A stretch of DNA of 64,000 nt from positions 1-64,000 of the forward strand of contig JAQGPJ010000061.1 of NCBI GenBank assembly GCA_028293125.1, read 5' to 3'. A model generated the notes under the pieces. That model was not told where the DNA came from. It did no database searches and was given only the letters and a program-made list of their open reading frames with translations. The position numbers and the translations under genes are program-made. Below are positions 29,610 to 33,311 of this stretch, piece by piece; positions within the stretch are counted from its first letter, which is position 1; each line of letters starts with the position of its first letter. This stretch comes from Verrucomicrobiales bacterium (GTDB lineage: Bacteria > Verrucomicrobiota > Verrucomicrobiia > Verrucomicrobiales > V1-33).

Positions 29610-32600
29610 ATGAGCCAGTTCAAGTCACCATTCCTCGCCGTTCCGGAGGGTGATTGGCTTTGCTCGAATGAACTGGCTTTTGCGATCTTTGATGGTTTTC
29701 CGGTCTCCCCCGGACACGTTCTGGTCACCACCCGACGCATTGTCGAAACTTGGTTCGACGCGGTCGATGCCGAACAAGCCGCACTGATGGCTTTGGTGAA
29801 AGAGTCCAAGCGTCTACTCGACATCCAACTTTCCCCGAAACCTGACGGTTACAATGTCGGATTCAATTCGGGCGGTGCCGCCGGTCAAACCGTGCCCCAT
29901 GTCCACATTCATGTGATCCCCCGTTATCTGGGGGATATGGAGGATCCACGCGGCGGAGTGCGCCATGTCATCCCCGCCAAGGGAAATTATCTGGCTGGCG
30001 GGCCGGCAAAATCCGACAGCGGCCATTCCCTGACACTGGCCACCGGGCAACCCCACTCGCCACTCTGGAAAAGCATCGGCCAGCGGTTGGCCTCCGCCGT
30101 TGAGGCGGATGTTCTGGCATCGTTCATCCAGCCGTCCGGCCTTGATGTTATCCAGCTGTCGATTTTCTCCGCACTGCGGGGCGGGGCGAGAATCCGGATT
30201 CTTGTCGGCGATTACCTCCATATCACCTCGGCGGAAGCCCTCCGGCGTTTGATGGGCTGGATGGCGCTGGCCGATGAAATACTCGAAAATGGCACTCTCG
30301 AAGTCCGGCTGGCGGAGATTTCGAAACTCCCCTCCAAGCCCGACTCCTTCCATCCAAAGGCTTGGCGCATCGTGGATTCCTCAGGCGGGCTTCTTGTTGT
30401 AGGAAGCAGCAATCTTTCCAAAGCCGCTCTTGAAACCGGAGTCGAGTGGAACCTGATCGGCCGGACCACCGGCTCCGAACCCCTCGACCTGGCGCTGGCA
30501 CACGCTTTCACCGATCTCTGGAAACAGGCTACTCCGCTTGATGAGGCGCTTGTCGCCCGGTATGCCTTGGATTCCAAGGAGGCGTACCGGAGATTCATCC
30601 CTCCGGAGTCCGTCGATTTGCGTAAGATCCTCCACCTGCCGCGTCCCTGGCAGCGTGGCGCATTGGAATCGCTCAATCGAATTCGGGCGAGTGCTTACCG
30701 CCGCGCTCTCGTGGCCGTCGCCACCGGTCTTGGCAAAACCTGGCTTGCTGCGTTCGATATTCTGGCTGCCGGGAAATTACTCCAGCGGCAACCCCGCGTT
30801 CTGATCATTGCCCACCGCGCTGAAATCCTTGTCCAGGCTGAAGCCACCGTCCGCACCGCGATGCAGTCGGAATGGGATAAAACCCGCGTCACTTGGTATC
30901 TCGGCGCGAACAGCGACATGAGCGGCGACCTTGTAGTCGCCTCGGTCCAGAAACTCACACGTCCCGAAGGCCTCGCCGAGTTGAATCGCCAGCACTTCGA
31001 CTACGCCGTCATCGACGAGGTTCATCACGCCCAGGCACCCAGCTACCGGCGTGTCATGGCCCGACTGAATGCCACTTTCACCCTTGGCCTCACCGCAACT
31101 CCGGAGCGCACGGATGGAGTGGACGTGGCATCGCTCTTTGACGATGTGCTCGCGTGGCAGGCTACTGTCGGCGACGGGATCGTGGAAGGCTCGCTGGTGC
31201 CCTTCCACTATCTGGGACTCAAGGACGATGTGGACTTCGAGCAAATCCCGTGGCGCAACGGCCGCTTCGATCCCACCGCGCTTGAGGAGAAACTCGAGAA
31301 CAGCGAGCGCATGGAACGTCTGTGGACAGCATGGCAGGTCGATCCCGATGCCCGCACGGTCGTCTTCTGCTGCTCCCGCCGCCATGCGCTGTACACCCGC
31401 GACTGGCTCCGACGCCGCAAGGTCCGCACTGCCGCCGTGTTTTCCGGCTCCGGCGGCGATCCGCGCAGCGGCAGTCTATCCGATTTCATTGATGGCAAAC
31501 TCCAAGCCTTCTGTGTGGTCGATCTCTTCAACGAAGGACTCGACGTTCCGGGTGTGGACCGGGTTGTCATGCTGCGCCCCACCGAATCCAAAGTCATCTT
31601 CCTCCAACAACTCGGGCGGGGACTCCGCGCCGCGGAGAACAAGCTGCGGCTGAAAGTCATCGACTTCGTCGGCAATCACCGCGTCTTCGCCAGCCGCCTC
31701 ACCCACCTCCTTTCACTTGGCAACCGCTCCGCGACTTGGACTGACCTAAAGAAATACCTCAAAGGCGCGCCCCCCGATCTGCCGGACGGCTGCCTGCTCG
31801 ATCTCGAAGTCGAGGCCAAGGAGCTGATGCTGCGTCTCGTGCCAAACACCGGTTCGGCCGTCGTGGAAGCCTACCGCAGCATGCGCGATGAGCTTGGTCG
31901 CCGGCCCTCGCCCAGCGAGCTGTTCCACCATGGTTACCTGCCCCGCACCCCGGCCGCCCGCTACGGCTCATGGTTTGGATTCATTTCCGAAGAGGACGGT
32001 CTCACCGCCGGCGAACGGCTGGTTTTCGACTCTTTGAAGCCATGGTTCACCATGCTGGAAGGCACAAACCTCTACAAATCCTACAAAATGGTCGTTCTGC
32101 GCGTGTTGCTCGATCGCGATGCGCTGTGGGACGGAATGGAAATCGAAAAACTCGCCGCCGCCTGCCGCGAGTTCCTGCTTTCCCACCCGACGCTCCGCCA
32201 CGACCTGCCACCCACCCAGCAGTTTCCCGATCCTGCCAAAGCACCGATCCAAACATGGGCCGCCTGGTGGCTGGAATGGCCGCTGTCCCGCTGGATGGAC
32301 GAGCAGGCAGGCAGGCGTTGGTTCAAGCGCGGGGGCGACCGTTTTCTCGCCGCCTTTCCCTGCCCGGAAAATCTCCGACCCGACTTCGAGTCGATGACCG
32401 CCGAGCTGGTGGACTACCGTCTCGCCCACTATGCAAAGACCCGCATGGTGAAAGTCGCCGAACTCAGCGCGGGCCGATTCATCGCCAAGGTCAGCCATTC
32501 CGGCGGCAAACCCATCCTACGGCTCCCCAGCGTCGAGGAGCTGCCCGGCCGCCCCATCGGCCCGACGACCGCCACCCTTCCCGATGGAAGCCAGTGGGTC

Positions 32601-33311
32601 TTCAAGTTCGTCAGGATCGCCTGCAATGTCGCCTTTCCGCTCGGCAGTGAGGAAAACCGGATCCTCCCGCTCCTGCGCGGCTGGTTCGGCGAGAACGCCG
32701 GGGCTCCCGGCACCAATTACCAAGTCGCCTTCACGCAGTCTGAAAACGGCTGGGCCGTCGCGCCTGTCGCCGTCTCAACTCCTTTGCGGGTCGTGGACGC
32801 GGGCCCCGACACCCAGGAATCCGAATACCGCGACCTTCCGGGTTTCGTCGATGACCCCGCCGCCAAGGACAAATTCACCCGTCTCGTCCCCGTTTACAGC
32901 CTTGAAGCCGCCGCCGGCCTATGGGGGCCGGAAACCATACCCAAGGAAATCGGCTGGGCCGAGGCTGCCGGGACTTCGATCAAACCCGGCATGTTCATTG
33001 TCCGGGTCCGCGGTCATTCGATGGAGCCTAAAATCAGGGATGGCTCTTGGAACCTTTTCCGCCCCTGCCCGCATGGTTCCCGCGGCGGCCGCATCGTCCT
33101 TGTCCAGTTCAGCTCCATGGGCGACCCGGAAAATGGCGGGCGCTTCACCGTGAAAAAATACCACTCCACCAGGACCGTATCCGAGGACGCCTGGCAGCAC
33201 GATCGCATCGAACTCCTCCCCCTCAACCCTGACTACGACCCCATCCCCATCGCGCCTCATGAGGGAACGGAGATGGTGGTGGTCGGCGAATGGATTTCTT
33301 CAATCGACTAA
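29610..33311 (+). CDS. HIT - PLD nuclease - SF2 helicase - LexA-like S24 peptidase fusion
   Basis: A 1233-residue soluble multidomain protein. Order: HIT nucleotide hydrolase (about 5-125; His97, His99, His101 in HVHIHV); PLD-like nuclease (about 150-310; His248 and Lys250 in FHPKAW, then GSSNLS); DExH helicase (Walker A ATGLGKT 371-377, IDEVHH about 468-473, LTATPER, and QQLGRGLRAAENK as motif VI); a mid-region like DUF3427; and a C-terminal S24 domain with Ser1137 in GHSMEP and Lys1182/1183 in FTVKKY. The Ala1102-Gly1103 bond lies 34 residues before Ser1137, as in LexA. PLD-helicase-DUF3427 proteins occur in defence and repair loci. A role in DNA-damage response or phage defence is inferred. 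Confidence 0.85.
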   Translation: MSQFKSPFLAVPEGDWLCSNELAFAIFDGFPVSPGHVLVTTRRIVETWFDAVDAEQAALMALVKESKRLLDIQLSPKPDGYNVGFNSGGAAGQTVPHVHIHVIPRYLGDMEDPRGGVRHVIPAKGNYLAGGPAKSDSGHSLTLATGQPHSPLWKSIGQRLASAVEADVLASFIQPSGLDVIQLSIFSALRGGARIRILVGDYLHITSAEALRRLMGWMALADEILENGTLEVRLAEISKLPSKPDSFHPKAWRIVDSSGGLLVVGSSNLSKAALETGVEWNLIGRTTGSEPLDLALAHAFTDLWKQATPLDEALVARYALDSKEAYRRFIPPESVDLRKILHLPRPWQRGALESLNRIRASAYRRALVAVATGLGKTWLAAFDILAAGKLLQRQPRVLIIAHRAEILVQAEATVRTAMQSEWDKTRVTWYLGANSDMSGDLVVASVQKLTRPEGLAELNRQHFDYAVIDEVHHAQAPSYRRVMARLNATFTLGLTATPERTDGVDVASLFDDVLAWQATVGDGIVEGSLVPFHYLGLKDDVDFEQIPWRNGRFDPTALEEKLENSERMERLWTAWQVDPDARTVVFCCSRRHALYTRDWLRRRKVRTAAVFSGSGGDPRSGSLSDFIDGKLQAFCVVDLFNEGLDVPGVDRVVMLRPTESKVIFLQQLGRGLRAAENKLRLKVIDFVGNHRVFASRLTHLLSLGNRSATWTDLKKYLKGAPPDLPDGCLLDLEVEAKELMLRLVPNTGSAVVEAYRSMRDELGRRPSPSELFHHGYLPRTPAARYGSWFGFISEEDGLTAGERLVFDSLKPWFTMLEGTNLYKSYKMVVLRVLLDRDALWDGMEIEKLAAACREFLLSHPTLRHDLPPTQQFPDPAKAPIQTWAAWWLEWPLSRWMDEQAGRRWFKRGGDRFLAAFPCPENLRPDFESMTAELVDYRLAHYAKTRMVKVAELSAGRFIAKVSHSGGKPILRLPSVEELPGRPIGPTTATLPDGSQWVFKFVRIACNVAFPLGSEENRILPLLRGWFGENAGAPGTNYQVAFTQSENGWAVAPVAVSTPLRVVDAGPDTQESEYRDLPGFVDDPAAKDKFTRLVPVYSLEAAAGLWGPETIPKEIGWAEAAGTSIKPGMFIVRVRGHSMEPKIRDGSWNLFRPCPHGSRGGRIVLVQFSSMGDPENGGRFTVKKYHSTRTVSEDAWQHDRIELLPLNPDYDPIPIAPHEGTEMVVVGEWISSID

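Follow-up and report, generated by a model that had tools for sequence, protein, structure and literature searches.

How can a cell keep its restriction enzymes from shredding its own chromosome while that chromosome is being repaired? This old question, partly answered only for the type I enzymes of E. coli (through ClpXP), is raised by a gene of a Verrucomicrobiales bacterium (contig JAQGPJ010000061.1) lying on the + strand of the 64,000-nucleotide stretch of DNA analysed here, hereafter the window. Judged from its sequence, the product of this gene is a restriction endonuclease like SauUSI, ATP-dependent and made as one chain, to which a HIT domain at the N-terminus and an S24 (LexA-like) autopeptidase tail at the C-terminus are added. 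We favour, with a probability of about 0.5, a reading in which self-cleavage of this tail, stimulated by RecA filaments, would turn restriction off after DNA damage, that is, a built-in restriction alleviation.

Domain layout of the window protein

An earlier note on this DNA had described a 1233-residue chain carrying a HIT triad, a PLD motif, an SF2 helicase core and an S24 domain. The open reading frame (ORF) is as it described, Pfam, the PDB entry 7clg_A and PADLOC agree with it, and the protein (lengths in amino acids, aa) is laid out as follows, with the basis of each feature in brackets.

29610..33311, +, whole ORF, ATG start, 1233 aa, in the order HIT-PLD-SF2-coupler-unknown-S24 (ORF call, Pfam, 12 full-length orthologues)
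29610..29969, +, N-terminal HIT domain, residues 1-120, triad H97/H99/H101 (Pfam PF01230, PDB phmmer, orthologues)
30075..30599, +, PLD-family nuclease domain, residues 156-330, H248xK250...S266xN268 (7clg_A match, PADLOC mREase_IV, orthologues)
30612..31679, +, SF2 ATPase motor, residues 335-690, GLGKT 373-377, DEVH 469-472 (ResIII and Helicase_C, 7clg_A)
31680..32834, +, coupler and C-terminal domain without assignment, residues 691-1075 (HNH_repeat-like stretch)
32892..33308, +, C-terminal S24 (LexA-like) autopeptidase tail, predicted, residues 1095-1233 (Pfam PF00717, structure model, Foldseek, profile)
32913..32918, +, predicted scissile bond Ala1102-Gly1103, VYSLEAAA|GLWG (orthologue and tail conservation, profile alignment to LexA VAAG)
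33018..33020, +, predicted catalytic Ser1137, RGHSMEP (12/12 orthologues; Ser-Met in 48/48 tails)
33153..33155, +, predicted catalytic Lys1182, first Lys of RFTVKKY (12/12 orthologues; 48/48 tails)

Pfam places HIT at residues 17-106 (E 4.7e-19), ResIII at 344-500 (2.3e-28), Helicase_C at 576-674 (1.4e-9) and Peptidase_S24 at 1095-1220 (4.8e-10; 39.6 bits for a cut-off of 23.3), and gives PLDc_2 at 185-283 as a match below its cut-off (0.0028). The PLD assignment is secured by 7clg_A (953 aa, “Putative helicase”), which matches residues 171-719 co-linearly at 1.1e-61, together with the PADLOC profile mREase_IV, which matches the protein at 2e-82; from its length and domain layout, we take 7clg to be SauUSI. 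Because of these two matches, we assign the PLD and motor part to the SauUSI-type restriction motors; as in SauUSI-like enzymes, HxK...(S)xN is followed by an SF2 ATPase on one chain, with K376 as the Walker Lys and D469-E470 as the DE of DEVH. An ATP-dependent nuclease of SauUSI type, driven by a restriction motor, is thus a more fitting name for the protein than the earlier label of “helicase”. At the N-terminus, the HxHxH triad of the HIT superfamily is present, and the nearest PDB relatives are the HIT protein 6af2 and the Ap4A phosphorylases 3wo5/3ano (phmmer 8.7e-18 and 5.9e-17).

SauUSI, a type IV modification-dependent enzyme (PLD, SF2, coupler and SRA/DUF3427), shares with the window protein the PLD-motor order and the helical region after the motor; it lacks the extra N-terminal HIT domain, and an S24 tail is absent from its published architecture (PMC7913695). 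Conversely, its DUF3427/SRA domain, for recognition of 5-methylcytosine, was detected in the window protein neither by Pfam scans of the protein and of the isolated 691-1075 segment nor by a PDB profile search of that segment. DUF3427 is present in four relatives (L035, L036, L041 and L042). HIT seems to be a recurrent companion of PLD-motor enzymes. A plasmid of Hymenobacter canadensis (L093) has a separate HIT gene near a PLD-helicase with DUF3427, the two being unfused and the helicase without S24 tail. On this plasmid, the HIT gene, an IS630 transposase, a hypothetical gene, a Nudix-type gene and the PLD-helicase-DUF3427 gene lie close together (L093:5998-11140), near restriction-modification (R-M) genes, the transposase and the hypothetical gene standing between the HIT and Nudix-type genes.

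Sharing 55-87% of their residues with the window protein, the 12 full-length orthologues all carry the HIT, PLD and helicase motifs and the S24 dyad. None of the 12 departs from it at the HIT triad, the PLD H/K/S/N residues, the Walker Lys, the DE of DEVH, the AAA|G bond, Ser1137 or Lys1182. Purifying selection acts on each of the six domain segments, whose median pairwise ratios of non-synonymous to synonymous substitution (dN/dS) lie at 0.07-0.19: 0.07-0.08 for HIT, PLD and SF2, 0.11 for the coupler, 0.19 for the domain without assignment and 0.14 for S24. A chance assembly or a pseudogene is ruled out by these intact orthologues and by the selection acting on them, and chance also by a Gly-Ser spacing that recurs in unrelated host proteins, as described below.

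The S24 tail and its occurrence on unrelated enzymes

The earlier note had called the C-terminal part an apparently self-cleaving LexA-like domain, with Ser1137 in GHSMEP, a Lys in FTVKKY and an Ala1102-Gly1103 bond at a LexA-like distance from the Ser. Both predicted catalytic residues stand where it had put them, and the 34 residues from Gly1103 to Ser1137 equal those from Gly85 to Ser119 in E. coli LexA; Ser1137 and Lys1182 are 45 residues apart, compared with only 37 in LexA. We compiled a conservation table of 48 tails, of which many are close orthologues, so that independent observations are fewer than rows: the Ser, the Lys and the Met after the Ser are found in 48, the scissile Gly in 47, Ala or Cys at P1 in 41 and 7, and Ala at P2 in 46. 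Gly and Ser are separated by 34 or 35 residues in 41/47 tails, and the residues P3-P1 read AAA in 25, IAA in 10, AAC in 6 and VAA in 2 of the 47. The Cys-Gly site occurs in all six tails on R-M-type bodies (AlwI, HsdR, HsdS, two type III-like and ResIII/TnsA), as in UmuD, and the Ala-Gly site in the tails of HIT-PLD and Schlafen-type (SLFN) proteins, as in LexA and CI.

Modelling bears out the likeness to LexA and lambda CI. The AlphaFold2 model of the tail, built with 28 sequences, has a predicted local distance difference test (pLDDT) score of 87.6 and a predicted TM score (pTM) of 0.83, and Foldseek against the PDB returns LexA 1jhe at the top (2.6e-6), followed by 8gmu (4.9e-6), with TM scores (target) of 0.72-0.75; the former is a LexA mutant crystallised with its cleavage region, the latter lambda CI on a RecA filament. 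Hyper-cleavable CI fragments (2ho0/2hnf) and LexA on RecA (8trg/8gms) are further matches. A single-sequence phmmer search of the S24 part against the PDB was too weak (best 0.41), and it is the profile of the tail that resolved the matches, finding LexA (1.6e-5), UmuD and CI and aligning VAAG of LexA onto AAAG of the window protein. A Ser-Lys dyad, an Ala-Gly or Cys-Gly bond N-terminal of the Ser and the S24 fold are, thus, all present, as in the LexA, UmuD and lambda CI proteins of MEROPS S24, and sequence and model together make it well supported that the window tail would be a catalytically competent S24 autopeptidase. One difference has to be kept in mind: in LexA, UmuD and CI the domain sits on a DNA-binding repressor or a polymerase subunit, whereas the tails described here sit at the C-terminus of complete DNA-cleaving enzymes.

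The tail is not peculiar to the window protein; it is a module that, in related bacteria, is found on a dozen unrelated kinds of restriction and defence enzyme. We surveyed 388 Verrucomicrobiota genomes with tail tblastn and with the tail profile, the latter also over 387 genomes of the order. By tblastn, 21/388 genomes matched, most matches lying at the C-terminal end of large ORFs; the profile matched 23/388 and 33/387, respectively. According to Pfam, the tailed bodies include many SLFN-g3 helicases of about 800 aa, an AlwI restriction endonuclease (L071), HsdR (L072), HsdS (L077), ResIII with a TnsA-like domain (L086), type III Res (L089), ResIII (L087), HNH_2 (L083) and methyltransferase-HNH proteins (L084, L076), to which are added a PLD-helicase-DUF3427 enzyme of the SauUSI branch (L134) and a DEAD/MZB helicase of 2000 aa, Druantia DruE-like by PADLOC (L082:114-6113, -). 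Near this last gene lies an AbiEi-type antitoxin gene (L082:6897-7940, -). In L076, the SLFN-g3 helicase and the methyltransferase-HNH protein are both S24-tailed, with a NERD nuclease between them:

L076, 6501-8927, 9414-10295 and 10322-12619, all -, three ORFs of the SLFN-g3, NERD, methyltransferase-HNH locus

We rejected the idea that the S24 annotation is an artefact, caused by kinship with a generic repressor: in the 388 genomes, profile matches below 1e-30 are nearly confined to long fused ORFs, the short ORFs among them are remnants or contig-end fragments, and a wide score gap separates them from other S24 proteins. Ordinary S24 proteins are common in Verrucomicrobiota and mostly short, 130-300 aa among the matches listed.

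Where does the tail begin relative to its host enzyme? In the HsdR-type protein, the PADLOC profile REase_I (5-1027 of 1029) ends at residue 1181, with the cleavage Gly at 1229; REase_III (3-972 of 973) ends at 1082 in the type III Res, with the Gly at 1114; REase_II (2-564 of 570) ends at 561 in the AlwI-type enzyme, with the Gly at 594. Since these near-full profiles end before the tail, the latter is appended to a complete, conventional enzyme. In the operons inspected, it is carried by the restriction or specificity subunit, and the adjoining methyltransferase genes are untailed: D12 (L071), type III Mod (L087, L089), N6_N4_Mtase (L086) and N6_Mtase (L077). In the tree of tails, a supported clade unites the HIT-PLD tails and a further clade most SLFN tails; among the SLFN tails lies that of the DUF3427 enzyme L134, on a long branch with nearby forks left open, a position that suggests that PLD-motor enzymes acquired tails at least twice.

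The portable tail family covers Verrucomicrobiota and at least one gammaproteobacterial record. This record is a Pseudoalteromonas plasmid PLD-helicase (L094:5953-8901) with a divergent S24 tail that keeps a KIACG site. Tblastn of plasmids with the tails gave essentially one close tail, in Halomonas, whose upstream ORF is in a different frame. On viral contigs, S24 proteins are mostly repressor-like and of ordinary length; one 391-aa viral protein (L148:4242-5414) joins an AACG-type S24 tail to a body of unknown kind.

We consider it rather probable that one portable, self-cutting S24 family has repeatedly been added to complete, unrelated immune enzymes, among which we count types I, II, III and IV-like, Schlafen-type, Druantia and HNH enzymes, and that RecA filaments would disarm or arm immunity directly through it, without transcription. 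Shared tails on such unrelated enzymes suggest a common, undescribed safety switch of bacterial immunity. The literature searched holds no report of S24 or LexA tails on restriction or defence enzymes, its coverage of subscription journals being thin and an earlier mention in a domain catalogue being possible; a 2025 review of R-M systems mentions neither LexA nor S24 (PMC12707154).

Damage-stimulated self-cleavage and rival readings

What would such a tail do? On intact DNA, it would stay uncut and the enzyme would restrict incoming DNA. Upon damage, RecA filaments on single-stranded DNA (ssDNA) would stimulate the Ser1137/Lys1182 dyad to sever the Ala1102-Gly1103 bond of its own chain, in the manner of LexA, UmuD and lambda CI; the tail would be released, and the nuclease would be left with a new C-terminus ...SLEAAA (-[AIV]AA or -AAC in the other enzymes), which ClpXP-type proteases may recognise as a degron like that of ssrA. 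Restriction would in this way stay off for as long as the host mends and re-synthesises its DNA. Two ClpX signals, the VAA end of cleaved LexA and the LAA at the end of ssrA, are both resembled by the new C-termini. We infer RecA-triggered self-cleavage in the cell from what is established for LexA, UmuD and CI; the off direction and the degron are likewise proposed steps.

The off direction is favoured because R-M enzymes must be ready ahead of any damage signal, because the tails avoid the methyltransferases inspected, and because cells are known to need a proteolytic alleviation of restriction linked to damage, which ClpXP provides in E. coli. There, restriction by EcoKI is alleviated after damage through destruction of HsdR (PMC4231737, PMC11109961), the same outcome as proposed here, with the difference that the trigger is the recognition of translocating HsdR by ClpXP, whereas the window enzyme would have its sensor built in, and such a sensor would span many enzyme types. 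If true, a RecA-sensing, self-cutting tail would be a direct and portable solution across unrelated immune enzymes, tie the SOS signal to immunity at the protein level and offer a transplantable means to make nucleases self-limiting after DNA damage.

Several points weigh against this reading. Tail-less homologues are ordinary active enzymes, so the cut body should work unless it is destabilised or degraded, and loss of the tail could for the same reason be neutral or even activating. The degron argument is weak, as -AAC ends (those of the R-M enzymes) are not known to act as degrons and as Ala is common before the bond in LexA-like repressors as well. One tail of the 48 (L090) has Asp at the position expected for the Gly, and the Pseudoalteromonas tail may lack the catalytic Lys, with possibly Arg instead. 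In E. coli, alleviation of EcoKI is independent of LexA cleavage and of SOS (PMC11109961), and the S24 protein IrvR reportedly functions without RecA (PMC7101444).

The same cleavage anatomy would also serve for a zymogen, in which the uncut tail keeps the nuclease inactive until a cut induced by RecA filaments, on phage attack or DNA damage, activates an effector akin to abortive infection. RecA filaments can rise on phage infection, the cut body should be active given its normal tail-less homologues, and several enzymes with the tail, namely the SLFN helicase and DruE, resemble effectors. We nevertheless find this doubtful: tailed HsdR, AlwI-type endonuclease, type III Res and HsdS have to deal with incoming DNA ahead of any SOS signal, a need for immediate cutting that a constitutive enzyme disabled by damage fits better, and were they activated while the host repairs its DNA and unmodified sites arise, the host chromosome would be at risk. 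The occurrence of the tail on many restriction and defence enzymes favours a general off switch over a phage-triggered on switch.

A self-cleaving tail might also answer to pH, stress, a partner protein or ssDNA rather than to RecA, for which IrvR would be a precedent; the closest folds are RecA-dependent repressors and the host genome has recA (together with three other S24 proteins), which makes such a signal improbable. More improbable still would be a tail that mainly docks the enzyme on RecA-ssDNA filaments at phage replication or recombination intermediates, with self-cleavage as a slow release timer: RecA-bound CI and LexA are indeed among the fold matches, and many bodies are motors or nucleases able to act on such DNA, but docking could do without a fixed dyad and Gly, which 47-48 of the 48 tails retain, and AlwI-type enzymes cut specific duplex sites. 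That conservation across very distant tails also speaks against a structural module without proteolysis in the cell, since dimerisation alone requires none of the three residues. S24 domains of CI and LexA do dimerise. Nuclease dimers have been seen in SauUSI (PMC7913695), and we still regard dimerisation as the sole role of the tail as very improbable.

The segment before the tail and the surroundings of the gene

Between motor and tail, residues 691-1075 comprise a mainly helical coupler with an HNH_repeat-like stretch (7.8e-6 when the stretch is scanned alone), followed by a beta-rich part at about 955-1055. A Pfam scan of residues 931-1080 gives no family, a profile of the 691-1075 segment has no match in the PDB and no relative on plasmids, and the AlphaFold2 model of residues 690-1233 is of low confidence (pLDDT 47). 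The beta-rich segment is a putative target-recognition domain. Residues ~941-1075 (window 32430-32834, WVFKFVRIACNVA...LLRGWFGENAGAPGTNYQV) are strongly conserved among the orthologues, with no relative detectable, and may form a new domain of this kind.

The earlier note had suggested a survey of homologues for location in defence islands; neither an obvious island nor a conserved partner gene was found around the window gene, no cognate methyltransferase is among the ten window genes scanned, and no tRNA that could mark a tRNA-linked island lies at 25000-38000. Among its neighbours in the window are genes for PSCyt/DUF1501 proteins, for a response regulator, for an MFS transporter and for KAS. 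In their flanks, several orthologues have a downstream region of ~0.9 kb in common; the flanks of the window gene share DNA with no orthologue's, and the gene, thus, appears to move alone. Several genomes contain remnants of the HIT-PLD gene or of S24 tails (L009:3684-3998, L011:7908-8198, L088:6666-7148 and L069:7089-7934), which suggests that such genes are often gained and often decay.

Directly downstream of the window gene, a 133-aa ORF (33353-33754) with no Pfam match carries zinc-finger-like CxxC pairs. Further upstream, a histidine kinase with an F5/8 type C (discoidin) domain (21142-23379) lies near a LuxR-type response regulator (28386-29219).

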